Virus record (IMG/VR): IMGVR_UViG_3300036845_000777
Span: 1-20,646 of that record
Strand: one strand, 5' to 3'
DNA from: a virus
DNA: 20,646 bases
Shown here piece by piece: positions 2,916-20,439 of this stretch (positions are counted from its first letter, which is position 1; each line of letters begins with the position of its first letter). The position numbers and the translations under genes are program-made. A model generated the notes under the pieces. It was not told where the DNA came from, searched no databases, and saw only the letters and a list, made by a program, of their open reading frames with translations.

Positions 2916-2941
2916 CTCTTTGCTTCCCTTGTCTTTGCTTG

Positions 2942-2962
2942 GAGCCGCCGTGGCAGCGGCTC
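2942..2962. promoter_or_regulatory. Perfect inverted repeat between divergent genes
   Basis: GAGCCGC (2942-2948) pairs with GCGGCTC (2956-2962) across a 7-base loop. It sits between the start of the minus-strand SSB-tailed gene (2915) and the start of the plus-strand collagen/CBM gene (2996). It could be a hairpin in the leader of the minus-strand gene or an operator. A TTGACA hexamer on the minus strand (2991-2996) is near, but no well-spaced -10 box follows it. There is no U-tract, so it is not a standard terminator. Confidence 0.4.
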
Positions 2963-2995
2963 GGATACGGTGCGGCAAGCCCGAGGTGCCTGTCA

Positions 2996-3805
2996 ATGTC
3001 TTGGATCGAGATCGGCAATCTTCGCGGCCCGGAAGGCGTGCCCGGCGCGGCTGTTGACGGAGTGCCTGGTGCGGCCGGTCAGCCGGGGCCACAGGGCGAG
3101 AAAGGCGAGCGTGGGAACATCGGTCCGCAGGGGCCGCAAGGCCCTCGTGGCGAAGCTGCGGTCGGTCTCAAGGGCGATACGGGCAGCGAGGGGCCGCGCG
3201 GTGCGCCGGGGATACCAGGCATTGCCGGTCCTCAGGGGATACCTGGTTTGGTCGGGCCTCAGGGCGAGCCGGGCGAGCGCGGGCCAGCCGGGTTCATGCG
3301 CATGGCGCAGCCGTGGGTCGACAAGGTTCACTATGAGGGAACAATCGTCACGCACGATGGCGGGACGTTCCAGGCGGTGCGCGATACCGGGCGGCCGGTG
3401 GCATCGGATGACTGGGTGCTTCTTGCGGCGCCAGGCGTTGCCGGATGCGACGGCAAGGACGGACGCTCGATGAACCTGCGTGGCACGTACGCGCGGACCC
3501 TTGCTTATCGGGCGCTCGACGTCGTGGCGCTCGACGGCGGGTTGTTCGTCGCCCGGCGGGACGATCCTGGGCCGTGCCCCGGCGACGGATGGCAATTGTC
3601 GGCGATGCGGGGAAGGAAGGGCGAGGCCGGGCCTCAGGGCGAGCGCGGGGAGCGGGGCGAGAAGGCACCGAGGTGGACGGGCTGGCAGATCGATCGCGCG
3701 CGCTATTTGGCAATCCCTCTTATGTCGGACGGGAGCCAGGGACCGCCGCTGGAGCTTCGCGAGTTGTTCCAGCAGTTCCAGCAGGAGACGATGCCGGATG
3801 GCTGA
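2996..3805 (+). CDS. Collagen-like protein with carbohydrate-binding-type modules
   Basis: The start is ATG 2996 (MSWIEIG) with GAGGTG eight bases upstream; an in-frame TTG at 2939 is less likely because it would run through the inverted repeat. The 269-residue product has Gly-X-Y repeats at about residues 9-98 and then two modules. The first (about 104-141) reads [15 protein letters not shown]...DDWVLLA. The second (about 160-202) has [21 protein letters not shown] followed by [10 protein letters not shown]. These resemble the CBM5/12-like chitin-binding fold found in many phage fibre and decoration proteins: a Tyr, a 'G-x-x-V-x-H/L-D-G-G-x-F' turn and a closing Trp. A short second collagen piece ([15 protein letters not shown]) separates them from the C-terminal helix. 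The likely role is surface decoration or glycan binding on the virion. The 3' end overlaps the connector gene by eight bases. Confidence 0.75.
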
Positions 3806-4448
3806 TCGCATCATCACGGTGCTGACGCCCGCGACGAGCTTCGATCTGATGACGCTGTCGGAGGCGAAAATGCTCATGGGCATTTCTCCAGCCGACACGA
3901 CGCAGGATACGGCGCTTCAGTTTTTCATCGACGTTAACAGCCAGATCATCGCCCGGCTTTGCAATCGCACGTTCGCGCGCGAGGAGGTTCGCGAGGAGTG
4001 GCGCGAGCTTAACGGCGGCACCCGGATTTTCCCGTCACACTGGCCGATCCAGTCTGGGGATATCGAGAGCGTGGAATCGCCGCTCGGGACCGTTCTCGAT
4101 CCCACCGGGTACGAGCTGGAGGAGGAGAGCGGCAAGATCGAGCTTATCGACCCGACCGCTGGTTATGCGAACGCCTGGGCCGAGCCGGTCATCGTCACGT
4201 ACTGGGGCGGCTATATGCTGCCCGGCGAGGCCCCGCTGCCGCTGAAGCAGGCATGCACGGTTCTGAATATTCAGAGCAAGCTGCTGGCCTCGCTCGGCTT
4301 GATGGGCGGCATGCGGCTTTTGTCGCACAAGGAAAAGAGAGTCGCCTTTCACGATCCTTTAAAGATACTCGAAGCCGCCATGGGCGCGGCCGGTAAGCCA
4401 AACGTCGTGATGGGTCTGCTCGACTATTATATCCGGCTTGAGGTTTGA
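3798..4448 (+). CDS. Head-tail connector, gp6-like (phiE125 gp8 / HK97 gp6 family)
   Basis: The 216-residue protein starts at ATG 3798 inside the last codons of the collagen/CBM gene, so the two are translationally coupled. The N-terminal part, [14 protein letters not shown]...[23 protein letters not shown], is the hallmark of gp6-like connectors: an all-helical bundle that docks under the portal and forms the first neck ring. The middle ([12 protein letters not shown] and the YWGGYMLPG segment) matches the longer phiE125 gp8-type members, which carry an extra beta-rich region. The C-terminal helix holds a run of Lys and Met residues. In HK97-like phages this gene directly follows the major capsid gene; here it follows collagen-like genes instead. 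Confidence 0.82.
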
Positions 4449-4464
4449 TCGCGGGATCATCCTG

Positions 4465-4827
4465 ATGGGCGTTGATTTTGCAACAATAGACTATCTGCCG
4501 AACTTCAATCTGTGGGCGCGGCCGATCCTCATTGCGCCGATTGTGTCGCAGCCTGGTGCTCCCGGCTACGCGGCACGCGGGATCTACGATACCGCCGAAA
4601 CTGATGTTGCGGCAGAGGACGGATCAGTCATCACCGATCACAGGACGATACTCGATATTCTCGAATCGGAATTCGGCACGCTGCCGGTGCAGGGCGATGT
4701 CGTCACCATCGGCGCTGATACCAATGCCAACGAACCGGCGCTCGGCGACTTCGAGATCATCAACGTCTGGCACGACGGCGCGGGCGAGACATCGCTACAA
4801 CTTCGCAAAATCATGACGGTGCCGTGA
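4465..4827 (+). CDS. Putative neck / head-tail stopper protein
   Basis: This 120-residue protein is rich in predicted beta-strands and lies immediately after the gp6-like connector. Its pattern of a GYAARGIYDTAE segment, VAAEDGSVITDHRTILDILESEF, LPVQGDVVTIGAD and a closing GETSLQLRKI matches small phage proteins placed at the lambda FII-like head-tail joining position. Such proteins cap the connector and stop DNA leakage before the tail binds. The start was put at ATG 4465. An in-frame TTG at 4438 would overlap the previous gene and adds residues unlike the family. No strong ribosome binding site precedes 4465, so coupling to the upstream gene is likely. The function rests on position and pattern. 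Confidence 0.65.
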   Translation: MGVDFATIDYLPNFNLWARPILIAPIVSQPGAPGYAARGIYDTAETDVAAEDGSVITDHRTILDILESEFGTLPVQGDVVTIGADTNANEPALGDFEIINVWHDGAGETSLQLRKIMTVP

Positions 4828-4828
4828 A

Positions 4829-5233
4829 ATGGCATTCGAAATGAACTTCATGGATACCGACGATTGCGTGGCCCGCATCGGCAAGATGATCGGTCACATC
4901 AATTACTTTGCCAATGTCGAGATGCGCCAGGAATTCAATGCATGGCAGACGCAGGACATGCATCGCAAGAAGGCCTCGACAAAGGGAACGAAATGGCGTC
5001 GCCATCAGAAATCGGTCTTCACGATCATAAGACCGCACAGCTATTACGAAACGCAGCGCTCCCAGCTTTATCAAGCCAAGCTGGTGCGCAAGCTGCGCCG
5101 CCGGAAGCGGCCGCTTAACGCCTATATCCAGCTACGCACCTCGACGCGGCCGATTCTGCGGGAGAGCGTCTATCAGAAACTGCCGCCGCGGATGAACGAA
5201 GCGTTGAGGCAGACCATCAACTGGAAAGATTGA
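4829..5233 (+). CDS. Putative neck protein, HK97 gp10-like by position
   Basis: The 134-residue product begins at ATG 4829, one base after the preceding stop codon. It is strikingly basic in its second half, with RRHQK, KLVRKLRRRKR and further Arg residues, and an acidic N-terminus (MDTDDC). It sits between the neck-stopper candidate and the tail terminator candidate, where HK97 gp10-like minor tail or neck proteins are found. I do not recognise a specific motif, so the call is positional. The last codons TTGA overlap the next gene's start. It could instead be a DNA-contacting neck protein, given the basic charge. Confidence 0.5.
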   Translation: MAFEMNFMDTDDCVARIGKMIGHINYFANVEMRQEFNAWQTQDMHRKKASTKGTKWRRHQKSVFTIIRPHSYYETQRSQLYQAKLVRKLRRRKRPLNAYIQLRTSTRPILRESVYQKLPPRMNEALRQTINWKD

Positions 5234-5913
5234 ATCTTGTGGCAATCCTCGCCGATGGTGTCATTGAAGCGGCTGATGCCGCCGATGCGCCGCGGGTAGT
5301 CTCCGGGCTGCCGGAAGGAATCACGCAAACCCAATCGTATAGCTGGGTGCTGCGGGAATTGTTCGTCGAGGCGCTGCAACCGCTGTTCCGCGGCTTCACA
5401 TTCGTTCGCAATCCCGAGCGGCCGATCCAAACGTGGCAATTGCCGGTCGTCGGCGTCTACATGCTGCCCGAGCGAATGACGCCATGGGGCGACATCAACG
5501 CGGGCGACATCCGCTTTACCCACGATTTCCAGGTCGGGTTTTCGATCGTCATCGCCGACAACGATCACGACAAAGCCCAGCAGACATTGGATTCGTACTG
5601 GTGGACGCTGATGTTCGGGCTATGGGCGAACGACGGCCTGACCAACCTCGTCATGTCCAACGGCCCTGACAATGTGCGGTTCATGGGCGTTTCTCTCGGC
5701 AACAAGCGCTTTGTCTTCGGTTCGGTCGGACAGAAAAACGAAACGCCGGTCGCCGAGCTACAGTACGAAGCAACCTGCAAATTCGGCAGCGAGTGGGCTC
5801 CGATCCCGCAAGACGACCTGCTCACCATGCGCGTGACTGTCCTTCCCGGCGGCTTCGATCAAACCGTGACGCCGGTCATCACGACCGAATACGACTTCTC
5901 ATCAACCGGCTAG
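5230..5913 (+). CDS. Putative tail terminator / tail completion protein
   Basis: The 227-residue protein occupies the slot just before the sheath block, where the tail terminator is normally encoded; this protein ends tail-tube and sheath polymerisation and docks to the neck. The sequence is typical of phage proteins annotated this way: VLRELFVEALQPLFRGFTF near the start, a VVGVYMLPERM segment, a DFQVGFSIVIADND strand pair, a Trp-rich helix (YWWTLMFGLWANDG) and an ELQYEATCKF strand near the end. The start is uncertain: TTG 5230 overlaps the previous stop as TTGA, while GTG 5239 sits ten bases after GGAAAG and would shorten the protein by three residues. The family call is inference from order and general pattern. 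Confidence 0.55.
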   Translation: MNLVAILADGVIEAADAADAPRVVSGLPEGITQTQSYSWVLRELFVEALQPLFRGFTFVRNPERPIQTWQLPVVGVYMLPERMTPWGDINAGDIRFTHDFQVGFSIVIADNDHDKAQQTLDSYWWTLMFGLWANDGLTNLVMSNGPDNVRFMGVSLGNKRFVFGSVGQKNETPVAELQYEATCKFGSEWAPIPQDDLLTMRVTVLPGGFDQTVTPVITTEYDFSSTG

Positions 5914-10266: not shown

Positions 10267-10299
10267 GTCGATACGGACACTAAATGTGCCCGTATCGAC
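10267..10299 (+). promoter_or_regulatory. Intergenic element A: hairpin
   Basis: GTCGATACGG (10267-10276) pairs perfectly with CCGTATCGAC (10290-10299). Inside, an A-C mismatch precedes three further pairs (CAC/GTG) around loop TAAAT. It begins 11 bases after the chaperone stop codon and leads directly into the pentamer tract. Confidence 0.8.
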
Positions 10300-10301
10300 G
10301 C

Positions 10302-10376
10302 CTGCCAAGCGTTGCCACACCGTGCCAGACCTGACCAGGCCTCGCCTGACCTCGCCTCGCCGCACCATGCATAGCC
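10302..10376 (+). repeat. Intergenic element A: NNGCC pentamer tract
   Basis: Fifteen consecutive five-base units in one phase, each of form NN(G/A)CC with two one-base deviations (AAGCG, ATGCA). The remaining 10377-10460 holds a small ACGTG-CA-CACGT hairpin (10383-10394) and no gene. The ribosome binding site AAGGA for the tape measure is at 10461-10465. Confidence 0.85.
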
Positions 10377-10472: not shown

Positions 10473-13400
10473 ATGGCCGATGGCGAGCAAGAATTGCAAC
10501 TTTCTGTAAAGTTTCGCGATGAGGCGTCGCCTGGGCTGCTTGCGCTCAAGCAGACCATGCAGCAGACCGGCCAAGCTGCTACCGATCAGCAGAAGAAGAA
10601 TACTGCGGAGCAGTCGAAACACCAAAAGGAATTGGAGGATCATACCAAGAAAATTCACGAGGGGTTCAGCAAGGCATTAGATGAATTCAATAAATATTCG
10701 GGGAAGATTTCAGGATTCAATGTTGGCGAATTTGGTCGCTTGGCTGTGGAGGCGACGCACGGCGTCGAGGGCTTGGCCATCGGCCTTTCGGCTTTGCCGA
10801 GGCTATTCAGCGAAGCCAATGAATCATTCAAGGAATTCACCGATAGCATGATTGGCCTTGAGGCGCGATCCAGGTCAGTTGGCATTATGGCTTCTCAGTT
10901 CAAGGCTCTCGCCGACAGGGTGCATGAACTGACCGGCATTTCGGAGAAGGCGGCGGAACAGAGGTTAACCACATTTTTCGATAGAATTCAGGCGGGGGCG
11001 ACCGGCGGGACGGCTGAAAGGAAGTCTCTCGGCGAAGTCTTTACTAATCCTGGACAAATCCAGGCGATGATGGCGCGCTGGCAGAGAATGCGGGTCGAGG
11101 ACCCGGAGGGGGGACCGGCTAAAATCCTAAATGAGGCTCGCGATGTTTTGCGGCGGCAACGAGAGGAGAATATTCGCAGAGATCCTTACCATGCTCAAGA
11201 TATCACAAGGAGGCAGGGGGAGAAGCTTGGATTCCCGGAATTGGAGTCGGCACAGGGCGAGTTTGTGGCGGCAACGAAGGAGCAGACGGATCTTATAAAC
11301 CGTAGTATTGCGCAGGCGCACAAAACCGTAGAAATTCAAGGCAAAAAGGACACGGCGGACGAGGAAGCTGGTTTGAAGCTAAAACTCGGTCTTGCGCCGC
11401 CAATGGATTGGCTTGTCAAGGCAATCACAACAGTCACCGAAGCTCTGGGGCCATGGGCTGCGGGACTAGGTGCTGTCGGCACAGCGATGTTCGCTATTTC
11501 CGGCCACCTAATGAGGGTGGCCGGGACCATTTGGTCGGGGAGAACGATAGAAAGGGGACTTGGCTGGTGGCAGGCTCGGCGCGCTGCGCGTGCGGCTAGG
11601 TTGGGAGCGGCGCCTGAGGCTGCGGCCGAGGGGGCGGTTGAGGGCGCGGTTGAAGGCGCGGCGCCTGAGGCAGCTTTAGAGGGTGGTGCCAAAGTTGCGC
11701 CAGAAACTCTTGTAAAGGCTGCGCCGAAAATTGCGCCAGAGGTAATACCGAAGACCCCGAGTTTGCTGGCGAGATCTGGCATCTTCGAATTGCTGCCTTT
11801 CTATGCTGCTGCCGCTTCTATCGCGACGACCAAGGATATTAAGGCAAAGGCTCCTGGTGGTCGTGAGTGGATAGACGTCATAAACGAGCGGAGCAGCAAA
11901 AAGCACGCCGAAGCCGCTGCCGCAGCATCGGAGCACGCCGCTGCCGGGCATCTGGCTGCCACGCCCGATGGCGCGGCGGCTAAACCGTTTGTGTTGCCTA
12001 ATGTACCTATTCCCTTAGTGGGGGGCATTGGTGGTCTTCAGAGCCCGGCAGCCAAGCCGCTGCCGCTGCCGGTGCCTGTCGAAGTTGTGAAAATGCCGGA
12101 AGAGGCGCGGCCTGCTGCGCCTGCTGCGCCTGCCGTACCTGCCGCCCGTCTTGAGAACATGCCGGGGCTGACGGACGAGCAGCGAGAGAACCTGAAGCAT
12201 GCTTTCGGGGGCAGATACATCATGCCTGGCCAGGGCGCGCCGACGGAAGTGGCTCCGCCACCTGCGCCTGCGCCTGTCGAGACAGTGCCGCGGCCGCCAG
12301 AGCGGCCGATTCCTCGGTTGCCGTTTGGCCGCGGGGCCGAGGCCGAAGGGCCGGTGCGGCTGGCATCGCTCGGGATACCGCAGGGGATCAAGATACCGGA
12401 AGCCGAGCCGCGCGCGCCTGGGCTCGCCGAAACATTCTTCCGGCAGCGTGCGGCGGTGCAGGAGCAGACTGACAAGACCGAGGCGCAGTCGAAGGCCACG
12501 ACGGAAAACACCGATCAGCTGCGGCGGCTCAACGATCTGCTCGATCCGACGGCTAAGGCCGGTGCGCCGGGCGGCGGGAAGGCTCCGGCGAGCGCGGCTG
12601 GCACTGCGGCACCGGGCGCGGCGGCTGGTTCTGCACCGAGCGCGGCGACCGAAGGCGTTCCTATGGGGAACGGCATCGTATCTGCGTCGGCTACTCTTCC
12701 GGGGCCGCACAACGACATCATCGGGCCATCCGTGACCGGGTCAGCAAGCCCGGCGGCTGGCGCGGGGAAGCCGGGCGGCGGTTCGTGGACGTACCAGCGG
12801 CTGCTTGAAGGTTTCAGGAACTCGAACTTGATCGGCGTTGTGCCCCGTGATGGCGCGCGCTTCGGGATCAGGACCGGATCGGCCGAGGAGTGGGCGCGCT
12901 TCGGCACCGCGGTCGCCAGCGCCGAGTCAAGTTTCAATCCGAATTTGCCAGGACCGGCAAATGATCCTGGCGGCTCTCATGGTTTGTTCCAATATGCGCA
13001 CGGTCAAGTTCCTGGTGGGAACGCCTTTGATCCGAACGCATCGGTCAAGGCGTTTATTCGGGATGCTGAGATTTCGGCTAGGTCCGGAAGTCTTGGTGGT
13101 GGTGGTCTGTTAGGGCGACGGTTCGAGACGATTGGAAAGCATCCGGAACGGACAATGTCGCGCTTGGGCGAAGCTAACAGGATCGCCTCACGCGCTGGCG
13201 CTGACACTAATTTGGCGCCGATGGGCTCCAACACTCCTGGCCCGGCTGGCAATCCGGCCGTACCGACCAGCGTTTTGGCGCGAGGGCCTGTCGCGGGTGA
13301 TGTCGAGGGCAGGGGCGGCTCTTCCGGCGGCCGGTTTAATGTGGCGGCCGGTACGCCGATTTCAGGGGAGCACGAGACCGTCACGCTGGCGAACGGCCAA

Positions 13401-14402
13401 AAGTTGACTGTCAACAAGCGCGCCGCCGAACAATTTCGTGGTTTCTTCAACGACATGATCAAAGCCGGTGCGCCGATCCGAAATCTCGGCGGATTCGGTA
13501 CGCGTCCGGGGAATGCATCGCAGCATCCGGTCGGCCTCGCGGTGGATTGGGCGCAGCACAGCCGCAATGTCGTCGATCGCGATGTTCAAAACTGGATCAG
13601 CAAAAATCGCGTTCAATTGAAAACACTTGAAGATCGCTGGGGCATGAGCGGCGGTGAAAATTGGAAGTCGCCCGATACGGGGCATTTTTCGGTCGAGCGG
13701 ATTTTCGGTGCGGAACATCTGGCCAAAGCTGGTGCGGGGTTGACCGTTCCAGGAACGACAACGGCAGTAGCAGGCGGCGGCGATCTGGGTGGAGGTGGCG
13801 GTGGTGGTGGTGGTGGCGGCGGTGGTCTTGGGCTTCCCGGTGGCTTTGGCGGTGGTGGAGGTGGGGGAGGTTTCGGCGGCGGCTTGGCTGCGCTCGGGCT
13901 CCCAGCGGGGATCAATATTGGAGGACTTCTTGGCGGGAAGCTCGGGCCGTTCGGCGGCATTTTAAGCAGCCTCCTCGGCGGTGGCGGAGGCGGTGGTTTT
14001 GGTGGAATCCTCGGCGGATTGCTCGGCGGCGGCGGCGGTGGTGGTTTGGGCGGGATTCTCGGCAGTGTTCTCGGAGGAGGGGGCGGCGGCGGTGGAGGTT
14101 TCGGCGGGATACTTGGCGGACTGCTTGGCGGTGGCGGTGGAGGGTTCGGCGGATTGCTTGGTGGCTTCAGCCATATGCTTGACCGCGGGTCGCTCGACCG
14201 ATCGGCGTTGGATCGCGGCGGCTCGATGACTCATCATGTCGAGGGCACCGGGTCGCTGAATGTCAATGTGGCCGCGCCGCATGGAACTTCCGTTCATGCG
14301 CGCGGCGGCGGGCTCTTCAAACGTGTGGCGATGACGCGGCAAACGCAGATGCAACCGACAGTTGCGGGGCCGCATACTTCGGGCGGTCTGTTCGATATTT
14401 GA
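10473..14402 (+). CDS. Tape measure protein with lytic transglycosylase and M15-type peptidase domains
   Basis: This is the longest gene (1309 residues) and lies in the canonical place after the chaperone pair; the protein sets tail length and is ejected into the host. ATG 10473 follows AAGGA at seven bases. Residues 1-300 are helical with coiled-coil character (QQTGQAATDQQKKNTAEQ). A hydrophobic segment lies near 315-350, followed by an Ala/Glu/Pro-rich tract. A lytic transglycosylase-like domain spans about 770-880, with candidate catalytic Glu818 in ASAESSFNP and GLFQ at 837-840. An M15-type peptidase-like domain follows at about 965-1090, with H1018-x6-D1025 (HPVGLAVD) and H1071 in GHFS. 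Residues about 1100-1233 are extreme poly-glycine. The C-terminal segment with GLFKRV..TRQTQM matches tape measure ends. The 5' part is visibly AT-richer than the rest, which points to a mosaic gene. Confidence 0.92.
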   Translation: MADGEQELQLSVKFRDEASPGLLALKQTMQQTGQAATDQQKKNTAEQSKHQKELEDHTKKIHEGFSKALDEFNKYSGKISGFNVGEFGRLAVEATHGVEGLAIGLSALPRLFSEANESFKEFTDSMIGLEARSRSVGIMASQFKALADRVHELTGISEKAAEQRLTTFFDRIQAGATGGTAERKSLGEVFTNPGQIQAMMARWQRMRVEDPEGGPAKILNEARDVLRRQREENIRRDPYHAQDITRRQGEKLGFPELESAQGEFVAATKEQTDLINRSIAQAHKTVEIQGKKDTADEEAGLKLKLGLAPPMDWLVKAITTVTEALGPWAAGLGAVGTAMFAISGHLMRVAGTIWSGRTIERGLGWWQARRAARAARLGAAPEAAAEGAVEGAVEGAAPEAALEGGAKVAPETLVKAAPKIAPEVIPKTPSLLARSGIFELLPFYAAAASIATTKDIKAKAPGGREWIDVINERSSKKHAEAAAAASEHAAAGHLAATPDGAAAKPFVLPNVPIPLVGGIGGLQSPAAKPLPLPVPVEVVKMPEEARPAAPAAPAVPAARLENMPGLTDEQRENLKHAFGGRYIMPGQGAPTEVAPPPAPAPVETVPRPPERPIPRLPFGRGAEAEGPVRLASLGIPQGIKIPEAEPRAPGLAETFFRQRAAVQEQTDKTEAQSKATTENTDQLRRLNDLLDPTAKAGAPGGGKAPASAAGTAAPGAAAGSAPSAATEGVPMGNGIVSASATLPGPHNDIIGPSVTGSASPAAGAGKPGGGSWTYQRLLEGFRNSNLIGVVPRDGARFGIRTGSAEEWARFGTAVASAESSFNPNLPGPANDPGGSHGLFQYAHGQVPGGNAFDPNASVKAFIRDAEISARSGSLGGGGLLGRRFETIGKHPERTMSRLGEANRIASRAGADTNLAPMGSNTPGPAGNPAVPTSVLARGPVAGDVEGRGGSSGGRFNVAAGTPISGEHETVTLANGQKLTVNKRAAEQFRGFFNDMIKAGAPIRNLGGFGTRPGNASQHPVGLAVDWAQHSRNVVDRDVQNWISKNRVQLKTLEDRWGMSGGENWKSPDTGHFSVERIFGAEHLAKAGAGLTVPGTTTAVAGGGDLGGGGGGGGGGGGGLGLPGGFGGGGGGGGFGGGLAALGLPAGINIGGLLGGKLGPFGGILSSLLGGGGGGGFGGILGGLLGGGGGGGLGGILGSVLGGGGGGGGGFGGILGGLLGGGGGGFGGLLGGFSHMLDRGSLDRSALDRGGSMTHHVEGTGSLNVNVAAPHGTSVHARGGGLFKRVAMTRQTQMQPTVAGPHTSGGLFDI

Positions 14403-14413
14403 TGATTTGAAAA

Positions 14414-14444
14414 GCTGATTACCGGTGTTCATCCGATAATCAGC
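14414..14444 (+). promoter_or_regulatory. Intergenic element B: hairpin
   Basis: GCTGATTA (14414-14421) pairs with TAATCAGC (14437-14444). A C-A mismatch then leads to an inner CGG/CCG stem around loop TGTTCAT. A further A-C mismatch with AA/TT pairs flanks the outside. It starts 12 bases after the tape measure stop codon. Confidence 0.8.
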
Positions 14445-14459
14445 CTTCATCGCTGGACC

Positions 14460-14524
14460 ATGCCAGCCACGCTATGCCACGCCATGCCATGCCGAGCCAT
14501 GCCCAGCCAAGCCCCGCCTGGCCG
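14460..14524 (+). repeat. Intergenic element B: NNGCC pentamer tract
   Basis: Thirteen five-base units with GCC recurring every five bases from 14466 onward (one GCT). The first unit is offset by one base. The 34 bases that follow (14525-14558) are AT-rich and lead to the next start codon at 14559. Confidence 0.85.
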
Positions 14525-14558: not shown

Positions 14559-15149
14559 ATGGGATCGATTCGAGATATTAGCACTCCTTGGCGCGACGGG
14601 ATGCTTCTCCCGGCGATGTTCGACGGGTGTCCGTTCTATACCGACAGCGGCGCTCGCGAATCTGGCCGCCGGACTGTTGTCCATGAGTACCCGAAATCGG
14701 ATAGATGCTACGCTGAGGACATGGGACAGCGCGCGGTCGAGTTTACGGTGCGCGCGTATTTCGTAGCTTATGTTCGCGACGAAGATGGTGACGCTCTCAC
14801 GTCGCAGTGGCTGCACAGGCGTGATTACCGCATCGGGCGTGACAAGCTCCAGATGCGCCTCGACCAAGGCGGCGAGGGCGTCCTTCAGCTACCCAATCAA
14901 GGTCGCGGCGGTGGTGGCGATCAGCTTACTTTGACTGTGGTTTGCACGCGCTACCGGATGGTCGAGGAAGATCGCTATGGTGGTTACGTCACGTTCGAGA
15001 TGTCGTTCGTCGAATATGGCCAAGTGCCAATGCCGCAGATTTCGACGAAAAATCTTGTTAACGATGCCATGCAGAATGGCCAGAATCAAACAACCAACAA
15101 TCTCCTGAACCTGCCACAGTTGCCACAGGTGCATCAGCCGATCCCGTAG
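14559..15149 (+). CDS. DNA circularisation protein, N-terminal part (Mu gpN-like)
   Basis: The 196-residue protein has the N-terminal pattern of the Mu gpN / DNA circularisation family: SIRDISTPWRDGMLLPAMFDGCPFYTDSGARESGRRTVVHEYPKSD, then VEFTVRAYFVAYVRDEDGDALTSQWL and a closing VTFEMSFVEYG. In Mu-like phages gpN is a baseplate-associated protein encoded after the tape measure; the name comes from an older functional description. Whole-length members are around 400-500 residues. Here the frame stops at TAG 15147 and again at TGA 15153, and the C-terminal half resumes as a separate gene in the same frame. The end (residues 166-196) is Asn/Gln/Pro-rich linker. The start ATG has only a weak AGAAAAG ribosome binding site and follows pentamer element B. 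Confidence 0.8.
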   Translation: MGSIRDISTPWRDGMLLPAMFDGCPFYTDSGARESGRRTVVHEYPKSDRCYAEDMGQRAVEFTVRAYFVAYVRDEDGDALTSQWLHRRDYRIGRDKLQMRLDQGGEGVLQLPNQGRGGGGDQLTLTVVCTRYRMVEEDRYGGYVTFEMSFVEYGQVPMPQISTKNLVNDAMQNGQNQTTNNLLNLPQLPQVHQPIP

Positions 15150-18127: not shown

Positions 18128-18158
18128 GGAACGGTGAGGTTGATGGCCTCACCGCTCC
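18128..18158 (+). promoter_or_regulatory. Intergenic element C: hairpin
   Basis: CGGTGAGG (18132-18139) pairs with CCTCACCG (18147-18154) around a 7-base loop TTGATGG. Outside, an A-C mismatch is followed by GGA/TCC pairs (18128-18130, 18156-18158). It starts seven bases after the spike stop codon. Confidence 0.8.
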
Positions 18159-18161
18159 TGG

Positions 18162-18236
18162 GAGCCAGCCTTGCCGAGCCCCGCCCCGCCGTGCCCCGGC
18201 ACGCCCCGCCTAGCCTAGCCAAACCATGCCTAAGCC
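18162..18236 (+). repeat. Intergenic element C: NNGCC pentamer tract
   Basis: About 15 units, mostly NNGCC, with GCC (or GGC/ACC) every five bases from 18171 to 18230. A four-base unit lies near the start and a six-base unit at the end. Confidence 0.85.
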
Positions 18237-18254
18237 GAGTTGTGTAAACTCGGC
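18234..18254 (+). promoter_or_regulatory. Hairpin between pentamer tract C and tail fibre start
   Basis: GCCGAGTT (18234-18241) pairs perfectly with AACTCGGC (18247-18254) around loop GTGTA. It overlaps the last GCC of the tract and ends 42 bases before the TTG start at 18297. No U-tract follows. Elements A and B have no equally strong counterpart here. Confidence 0.6.
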
Positions 18255-18296: not shown

Positions 18297-19769
18297 TTGG
18301 CCGACGTCATTCGAATAAAGAGGCGATCGTCAGGTTCGCCGGGTGCGCCAGCGTCGTTGGCCAGCGCGGAACTTGCCTATAATGAAACCGACCACACGTT
18401 GTATTACGGCGAAGGAAATTCCAGCGGAAATGCTATAACAATTGCTGCTATCGGCGGCCAGGGTCTCGCGAGCAGCGTAACGCCGACCATGGCGGGCGCC
18501 GGGGCGCCAGGTACGGCCTCGCAATGGTCCCGCGGCGATCACGTCCATCCGACAGACACTACGCGAGCGCCATTGGCGTCTCCGGCTTTCACCGGGAGCC
18601 CGACCGCGCCAACCGTAACGCCGGGAACCGACAGTAGCACCAAAGTCGCGACGACGGCGTTTGTCCAATCGGCTGTCGCCGCAGTCTCTTCAGGTGTGAC
18701 CAACATCACCGCGGGCACGGGCCTGACGGGTGGGGGCACCGGCAACGTCACGATCTCCGTTGCGCCAAACGGCATCAGCAATGCGCTGGCAGCGCTGATG
18801 CCGACGCTGACGCTGAAGGGGAACAACACAGGCGCGAGCGCGGCGCCAATCGATCTCACCGCCGCGCAGACGATGACGATGCTCGGCGCGGCTCCGACCG
18901 CGTCGCCAACTTTTTCCGGAACGGTGACGGCGCCGAAGATCGTCGGCCTCACCGACCCGAGCAATCCGCAGGACGCCGCGACCAAGAATTACGTCGACGC
19001 GACCGTCCAGGGCATGACGCCCAAGCCGACGGCCTGGGTTGCGACGGTCGGCGCGCTGCCGACGAACACCTATGCGAACGGTACTGCCGGTGTCGGCGCA
19101 ACGCTGACGGCGACGGCGAACGCGGCATTGAGCGTCGATGGCGTCGCTGTCGCGGCCGGGCAGATCGTCCTCGTCAAGAACGAGGCGACCGCGGCAAACA
19201 ATGGCTTGTATGCGGTCACGAATGCGGGCTCGGGGGGCGCGCCCTATGTGCTTACGCGCCACGCTGACATGGACACAGCCGGGGAGTTCTCCGGCGCCAT
19301 GGTGCCCGTCGGCAACGCTGGGGCGGCAAACGCCAATTCGCTGTGGCTCGCCAATCCATCGACGCCGATCACGGTCGGCTCAACGGCGATTCCGTTCACG
19401 CAGCTCAATGCTGCGACCAGCTACACGGCTGGCAACGGCATCAACATCTCGGCCAACACGATCGCGGCCGTCGGTACGGCGAACAGGATCGTCTCGACGC
19501 CGAGCGGAATTGACATCGCGAGCATCTACGTTGGTCAATCGTCTCTCAATACTCTCGGTACAGTTACGACAGGAGTCTGGAATGCTACGCCGATTGCAGC
19601 AGCATATATTGCCGGGCTCGGCACGATGGCTTCGCAGAATGCCAATGCGGTGGCTATAACGGGAGGGACCATTGATAATGTGGTTCTTGATGGTGGAGTC
19701 TTTGTTCTCTTCTTGTCTGTGCTCCCGCATCTGTTGGGATGGTTGAACGCTCTCGCTTTAATTTCGTAG
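18297..19769 (+). CDS. Tail fibre protein (3' end probably altered by an insertion)
   Basis: The start is TTG 18297, with AGGAAAG seven bases upstream; the protein then begins with the ADVIRIKRRSSGSPGAPASL module that also starts the gene at 20505. An upstream TTG at 18240 would lie inside a hairpin. The 490-residue product has an N-terminal attachment module (NETDHTLYYGEGNSSG), a phage tail repeat (APLASPAFTGSPTAPTVTPG, about 91-110), Gly/Thr/Ala-rich beta-helix-like sequence (GLTDPSNPQDAATKNYVD), and a GTMASQNANAVAITGGTIDNVVLDGG segment. Fibres of this type recognise the host surface. After LDGGVF (residue 469) there are 21 hydrophobic residues unlike the rest, encoded antisense to the end of the endonuclease gene; the spike gene stops right after its equivalent LDGGNF. 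Confidence 0.85.
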   Translation: MADVIRIKRRSSGSPGAPASLASAELAYNETDHTLYYGEGNSSGNAITIAAIGGQGLASSVTPTMAGAGAPGTASQWSRGDHVHPTDTTRAPLASPAFTGSPTAPTVTPGTDSSTKVATTAFVQSAVAAVSSGVTNITAGTGLTGGGTGNVTISVAPNGISNALAALMPTLTLKGNNTGASAAPIDLTAAQTMTMLGAAPTASPTFSGTVTAPKIVGLTDPSNPQDAATKNYVDATVQGMTPKPTAWVATVGALPTNTYANGTAGVGATLTATANAALSVDGVAVAAGQIVLVKNEATAANNGLYAVTNAGSGGAPYVLTRHADMDTAGEFSGAMVPVGNAGAANANSLWLANPSTPITVGSTAIPFTQLNAATSYTAGNGINISANTIAAVGTANRIVSTPSGIDIASIYVGQSSLNTLGTVTTGVWNATPIAAAYIAGLGTMASQNANAVAITGGTIDNVVLDGGVFVLFLSVLPHLLGWLNALALIS

Positions 19770-20418
19770 CGCCGTGCTGATCTAAATATTCCGCTAATTT
19801 ACGGAGAAGTGCTGCGTCATCATCGGCAAGACCGAGAAGTGTATTACAGCGATGGCAAATCCATCCTCTAAACATTCCGTTAGTGTGGCTATGATCGAAG
19901 CAGATGCGCTTTGTCTCTTCGCATATTTCACATGCCTTAGGTTTTTGTCGTCCTGCTCGCTTTTCTTGGTTTGCAATTGTTTTCTTCCAATTGGCCATAA
20001 GTCGTTTCTCCCTGTGTTTTGCATATTGGGCACGACTTGTTGCTTGACTGACTTTTGGATTTTGCAGTCGTTTCGCGCGCTGTTTCTCAGACATGCGATT
20101 TGCGTTTCTCGCGTACCAAGTTGCGGATCGTCGCTTTTGAGCGTCTCGATGCAATGCATTCCATTCATTTTTTTGTTTGCGCACCTTGTCTCTATTTTCC
20201 GCGTCATAGGCACGTTTTCTTGCTCGCCATCGCTCAAGATTGTTCTCACGCCATTCGCGTCGTTTTCTAGCGTCTTCGCCAGGATTGGCCGCGCGCTTCG
20301 CAGCCAATCGAGCCAGCCATTTTTCTCTATTTTTGTGATAGTACGCGCGCATATAGTCGCGGTGGCGCGTTCGCTTGCGCTCGATGCGATCATTTGCGCT
20401 ATCATGGGGATCAGCCAT
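19654..20418 (-). CDS. Endonuclease VII-like (His-Me finger) protein, probable mobile intergenic endonuclease
   Basis: ATG 20418 (MADPHD) follows an AGAGGA ribosome binding site; a TTG five codons upstream is less likely. Residues 1-155 are strongly basic with repeated Tyr/Trp-x-x-N-R-(E/D)-K-like units, a DNA-binding style common in phage HNH and endonuclease VII relatives. Residues about 160-215 form the catalytic module: CEIC (C163, C166), FDHSH (D175, H176, H178), FRGWICHRCN (C188, C191, N192) and LGLADD. This fits a Zn-stabilised beta-beta-alpha metal nuclease that cuts branched or specific DNA. The 40-residue tail after YLDQHG is not family-like, and the last 17 or so residues are encoded opposite the tail fibre gene. 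The region 19704-20418 is visibly AT-richer than its surroundings, as expected for acquired DNA. Confidence 0.85.
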   Translation of the reverse strand: MADPHDSANDRIERKRTRHRDYMRAYYHKNREKWLARLAAKRAANPGEDARKRREWRENNLERWRARKRAYDAENRDKVRKQKNEWNALHRDAQKRRSATWYARNANRMSEKQRAKRLQNPKVSQATSRAQYAKHREKRLMANWKKTIANQEKRAGRQKPKACEICEETKRICFDHSHTNGMFRGWICHRCNTLLGLADDDAALLRKLAEYLDQHGATKLKRERSTIPTDAGAQTRREQRLHHQEPHYQWSLPL

Positions 20419-20439
20419 CGGTTCCTCTCCCAAGGGGCC

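Follow-up and report, generated by a model that had tools for sequence, protein, structure and literature searches.

VIPR (Viral Interference Programmable Repeat) is a CRISPR-like system that acts between phages and was described in a recent preprint (PMC13142463; bioRxiv 2026.04.26.720920, April 2026). According to the preprint's main text, the Vipr protein binds a guide RNA, the vrRNA, which contains 9-16 pentamers with a constant GGY and a variable NN and ends in a structured 3' tail; once assembled, the two bind NN-x targets and repress transcription (PMC13142463). The class has been proposed to precede CRISPR. A literature search returned no paper on VIPR beyond this preprint. Here, we analyse the IMG/VR virus record IMGVR_UViG_3300036845_000777, a genome fragment of 20,646 bases (the window). 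Its plus strand carries the late operon of a tailed phage, with genes for portal, sheath, tube, tape measure (10473-14402), baseplate hubs and tail fibre. Three elements, A (10267-10376), B (14414-14524) and C (18128-18236), fill three gaps between these late genes. They are very probably minus-strand genes for three vrRNAs of a VIPR system, which would address and silence the late genes of competitors. We read them as vrRNAs because each joins a GGY-NN tract to a 3' hairpin, because such tracts are associated with the Vipr family, and because the guides match the starts of adjacent genes with a 1-nt skip. The author of an earlier note on this DNA knew of no described element of this form, a statement made outdated by the VIPR preprint.

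Anatomy and strand of the three elements

Read in the minus-strand direction, each of the three elements consists of a GGY-NN tract of 12-15 pentamers followed by one 3' hairpin:

10302..10376, minus strand: guide tract of putative vrRNA A, 15 pentamers (GGCTA TGCAT GGTGC GGCGA GGCGA GGTCA GGCGA GGCCT GGTCA GGTCT GGCAC GGTGT GGCAA CGCTT GGCAG)
10267..10299, minus strand: 3' tail hairpin of putative vrRNA A, 14 continuous pairs, with G-U where the plus strand has A-C; -25.3 kcal/mol, z -7.5
14464..14523, minus strand: guide tract of putative vrRNA B, 12 pentamers (GGCCA GGCGG GGCTT GGCTG GGCAT GGCTC GGCAT GGCAT GGCGT GGCAT AGCGT GGCTG)
14411..14447, minus strand: 3' tail hairpin of putative vrRNA B, 15 continuous pairs; -23.3 kcal/mol, z -4.8
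18166..18230, minus strand: guide tract of putative vrRNA C, 13 pentamers (GGCAT GGTTT GGCTA GGCTA GGCGG GGCGT GCCGG GGCAC GGCGG GGCGG GGCTC GGCAA GGCTG)
18128..18158, minus strand: 3' tail hairpin of putative vrRNA C, 12 continuous pairs; -23.2 kcal/mol, z -6.0

Every unit starting with GG in the three tracts has C or T as its third base. GGY starts 13 of the 15 units of A, and single deviant units are present in each tract. The ACC units seen in A on the plus strand read GGT on the minus strand; they fit the GGY rule, which makes A no less regular than B and C. GGY-NN runs on the minus strand score 11.5 (A), 10.25 (B) and 11.25 (C). No run exceeds 5 when the whole window is dinucleotide-shuffled 200 times, and the maximum in 2000 local shuffles per tract is 4-5. 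The five-base period thus stands far above shuffled sequence, a check that the earlier note had set.

That note had read the elements on the plus strand, as a hairpin broken by an A-C mismatch and followed by the tract. The order of stop codon, hairpin, five-base tract and next start is indeed found at the three positions, and the z scores show that the hairpins are real. The strand was nevertheless the wrong one, since the minus strand has the tract ahead of the hairpin, which lies 3' of it. Likewise, the mismatch exists on the plus strand but becomes G-U on the minus strand in all three elements, giving one unbroken stem of 12-15 pairs. Folding energies of the minus versus the plus strand are -25.3 versus -21.4 kcal/mol for A, -23.3 versus -16.4 for B and -23.2 versus -20.6 for C. 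In other phages, 161 tails also fold more stably on the GGY strand, which bears GNRA and UUCG loops. The RNA is assigned to the minus strand because of the G-U pairing, the stability and the GGY units, together with the tetraloops of these 161 tails. An RNA made from any of the three elements would run antisense to the late genes. The tail sequences of the three elements are mutually unrelated, in line with the earlier proposal of a structured RNA element that keeps its pairing while its stem sequences differ. No match to the window above the gathering score was obtained with Rfam.

A second perfect hairpin (GCCGAGTTGTGTAAACTCGGC) is located at 18233-18253 of the window, immediately 5' of guide C (minus strand), and possibly belongs to the 5' end of the vrRNA. 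Element A has an imperfect hairpin at the equivalent place.

Association of the tracts with the Vipr family

A collection scan with the pattern (GCCNN)x7 gave at least 120 viral stretches. At least 120 bacterial loci were obtained with a longer pattern, so that the two sets can be compared for composition, not for rates. Short tracts with varied NN account for 68 of the 120 listed viral stretches versus 6 of the 120 listed bacterial loci; among the matches listed, the remaining bacterial ones are mostly uniform repeats or coding sequences. On this composition, plain microsatellites or coding repeats were rejected as an explanation of the tracts. Many further instances occur in phages; together with the periodicity, the outcome of the checks named in the earlier note does not count against the element.

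The genes that adjoin the tracts share one rare family, PHROG 4652, listed in PHROGs as of unknown function and without a Pfam entry. The family is present in 83 of the 120 listed stretches, which were found by DNA pattern alone, and, among the matches listed, in five bacterial loci bearing varied-NN tracts. Tract orientation relative to the gene is fixed (223 tracts versus 6 among the matches listed). On whole records, PHROG 4652 was found in 33 of 50 tract-bearing records versus 2 of 26 sheath relatives. Its AlphaFold model (predicted local distance difference test, pLDDT, 96.5) is closest in fold to the Csm3/Cas7 RAMPs. The family profile matches PDB 36pp, ‘SUSP1 Vipr protein’ (E 6e-44), and this match led to the VIPR preprint. 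Judged from the profile, PHROG 4652 is the Vipr family, which links an unannotated phage protein family to a function. In each of the two window relatives with a Vipr gene, this gene and the sheath gene lie on different strands, and the same holds for the vrRNAs of the window. A blastn search of the tracts against named phages gave no match.

Other Vipr loci show additional features. Near-identical tRNA-like minihelices are found between the GGY tracts of Gordonia phage MakoManhole (L360, ~1656-1694, 2986-3025 and 3102-3142) and of Mycobacterium phage LittleE (L361, ~5200-5390). They are composed of an acceptor stem and a T-arm (GGTTCGANTCC) and could be tails or processing marks of a further vrRNA type. 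LittleE also carries a two-gene Vipr cassette (3980-5142). It lies on the opposite strand, with the tape-measure gene on one side and other tail genes on the other, and is surrounded by five GGY tracts. Phage wV8 (Felixounavirus; L364, 3750-3807 and 5143-5200) has a Vipr-family gene (gene 95) with GGT-NN tracts, and annotated 58-bp direct repeats, ‘DR_4’, flank genes 95 and 94. A relative of the window (L358, record G051, ~1000-2400) has its Vipr gene within GC-rich repeats that depart from the plain GGY-NN pattern and possibly represent another tract consensus. Finally, a Vipr-family gene with GGY tracts is located in the chromosome of the isolate Dokdonella fugitiva RH2WT43 (L233, 6001-6789); the locus is probably a prophage and could serve as a laboratory model.

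Guide matches at late-gene starts

The guides were decoded with the rule of the VIPR preprint, in which the NN bases pair and one target base is skipped, and scored against relatives of the phage. The gene that each guide appears to address is the one directly downstream of the element: the tape measure for A, a baseplate protein for B and the tail fibre for C. The corresponding features of the window are:

10473..10517, plus strand: own copy of the guide A site, at the tape-measure gene start, 21/26
14559..14593, plus strand: own copy of the guide B site, at the start of the baseplate-hub-like gene, 15/24, chance level
14559-15149, plus strand: baseplate-hub-like gene, directly after element B
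18396..18434, plus strand: own copy of the guide C site, in the tail-fibre N-terminal codons (TLYYGEGNSSGNA), 16/26, chance level

The best sites of guide A are all at the tape-measure gene start (22/26 in L249 and L367, 21/26 in L247, L369 and the window), with the skipped base at codon position 3. When all 15 units are used, reaching the start codon, L249 scores 25/30. A shorter A pattern also picked out two tape-measure-like starts in viral contigs, at 22/26. In relatives, the gene after B has homologues whose start gives the best match to guide B, antisense (19/24 in L254 and L367). Guide C fits the fibre N-terminus (ILYYGEGTGGSGG) at up to 22/26 (L390), with 21/26 in L376 and 20/26 in several others. 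For all three guides the skipped bases fall at wobble positions. Skips of 0, 2 and 3 give at most 17-19, excluding the trivial skip-3 match of each guide to its own tract. Unit-shuffled guides reach the observed score in 0 of 200 cases for A and 4 of 200 for B, and the best of 100 unit shuffles of guide C scores 20/26. An exact search of viral contigs with 9-10 guide units gave no match for A or C and one for B (L366, 22/24, AT-rich), which is probably due to chance. Guides of L324 and L428 had no significant match among the relatives compared.

A similar arrangement was found in L110, where a vrRNA adjoins a 174-aa baseplate-region gene whose homologue in L367 scores 20/24 and whose own copy scores 19/24. 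When 285 guides were compared with their own flanks (500 bases on each side), six scored above every one of the 200 shuffles at skip 1; the other skips gave 2, 1 and 1, with about 1.4 expected. Guide-target adjacency is a minority pattern with modest statistics, and the claim is carried mainly by the three window guides, whose selection did not depend on it.

Presence of the elements varies within the phage group. L247 (sheath 87% identical) is without A and without the B tract, and no intact elements are present at the homologous gaps of L247, L368 and L249. L247 keeps part of the B hairpin without the tract, which suggests that the B element was lost there. The state of L247 at B had prompted us to consider fold-back copying or insertion of a hairpin resembling a miniature inverted-repeat transposable element. 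The idea was rejected, the partial tail being likely a deletion remnant and the Vipr link accounting for the anatomy. A vrRNA was found in only 1 of 80 sheath-relative loci (L324), again antisense to late genes.

Elsewhere in the window, two open reading frames with long collagen-like Gly-X-Y repeats (1332-2489 and 2939-3805) lie between the portal and head-closure genes. The C-terminal part (CEICEETKRICFDHSH...WICHRCN) of a minus-strand open reading frame at 19654-20433 resembles, by eye only, a recombination endonuclease VII/HNH domain.

Proposed mechanism and comparison with known systems

From the anatomy, the strand, the association of tracts with the Vipr gene and the position and phase of the matches, we infer expression, Vipr loading, silencing of relatives and a reason for the linkage of guide and allele. 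Minus-strand transcription, antisense to the late operon, would yield the RNAs of A, B and C. A Vipr protein, a Cas7-like RAMP whose gene would lie elsewhere in the phage, would coat the GGY-NN tract, leaving the NN dinucleotides to pair with double-stranded DNA at NN-x-NN-x spacing, and the 3' hairpin would cap the RNA. The guides would be directed at the opening codons of the genes for tape measure, baseplate hub and tail fibre in related phages and thereby silence the late genes of competitors. Each guide being directly upstream of the phage's own diverged copy of the addressed gene, guide and non-matching allele could be inherited or exchanged as one module, and a recombinant would avoid silencing itself. 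We see an even chance that some VIPR phages scatter single guide genes in the structural operon in this way, each beside a gene whose diverged competitor alleles it silences. Guide and non-matching allele would thereby be coupled as a selfish allele-exclusion unit, moving by recombination, like intronless homing but through RNA-guided repression. This would be a new architecture for an RNA-guided class that is only months old, with solo guides inside the late operon, no local protein gene and linkage to the target's allele. The gene starts of tape measure, baseplate and fibre in close relatives would emerge as natural targets, and the arrangement offers a directly testable idea for self/non-self distinction and for the spread of guides by module exchange.

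Several observations weigh against the assignment to VIPR. Neither a vipr nor a vap gene was found within the 20.6-kb window, which is a fragment, and no perfect target was found for guides A, B and C. Guide A fits its own gene (21/26) almost as well as the best relative (22/26), so that self-avoidance is no more than possible for this guide. The tails of A, B and C differ from one another, whereas the tail is invariable in the model clade of the preprint (PMC13142463). Because four tails in L077 also differ in sequence, an invariable tail seems unlikely to define every VIPR type.

The vrRNAs might instead regulate the phage's own late genes, for example by delaying expression of tape measure, hub and fibre. 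Such a role agrees with the position of each element directly upstream of the gene fitted and with the 21/26 of guide A at its own tape-measure start, but is improbable given that the own B and C sites remain at chance level while relatives reach 19/24 and 22/26. We also judge it unlikely that the elements are relics, not expressed today, in a phage that lost vipr. The lack of vipr in the window, the deviant units in each tract and the gain and loss of elements would fit such a history; however, the tracts and hairpins are intact far beyond chance and the window covers only part of the genome. Hardly any weight is left for a plus-strand transcription end or insulator made of a hairpin and an unstructured, C-rich tract of the Rho-utilisation type. 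The intergenic position and the C-rich plus-strand tract after the hairpin would suit it, but the G-U pairs, GGY units and tetraloops indicate the minus strand, and the Vipr-family association and the guide-to-target matches also speak against it. This reading is close to that of the earlier note, whose suggested functions, an operon insulator or a module boundary, we consider wrong. Rho sites, terminators, TRAP-like elements and G-quadruplexes were rejected, as none of them accounts for a constant GGY, a variable NN and association with one gene family.

As vrRNA genes, A, B and C resemble those of the preprint in their 15, 12 and 13 GGY/NN units, within the range of 9-16, and in their structured 3' tail. 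They are also phage-encoded, use the 1-nt-skip code with the skip at codon position 3, and have their matches in relatives of the phage, as the targets in the preprint lie in competing phages or prophages (PMC13142463). They differ in being single, scattered antisense in the late operon and without vipr beside them. In the main text of the preprint, vrRNAs flank vipr (PMC13142463), whereas each guide here adjoins the gene whose alleles in relatives it fits. Solo guides arranged in this manner do not appear in that main text; the supplement may note them.

Class 1 CRISPR guides (type I/III, with a Cas7/Csm3 backbone) share a RAMP backbone on the guide RNA, with the Vipr fold closest to Csm3, and a structured guide end. 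Unlike them, the present elements have no CRISPR array, contiguous spacer or cas genes, and their pairing is gapped. TRAP-binding RNA consists of 11 NNGAG repeats whose spacer bases carry no code. It has the same five-base step, one step per protein subunit, but involves another protein and has neither a structured tail nor a DNA target. Intronless homing endonucleases are placed beside their target site. By analogy only, they too link a selfish function to a resistant allele of the gene attacked in competitors; here, RNA-guided repression would take the place of cutting.
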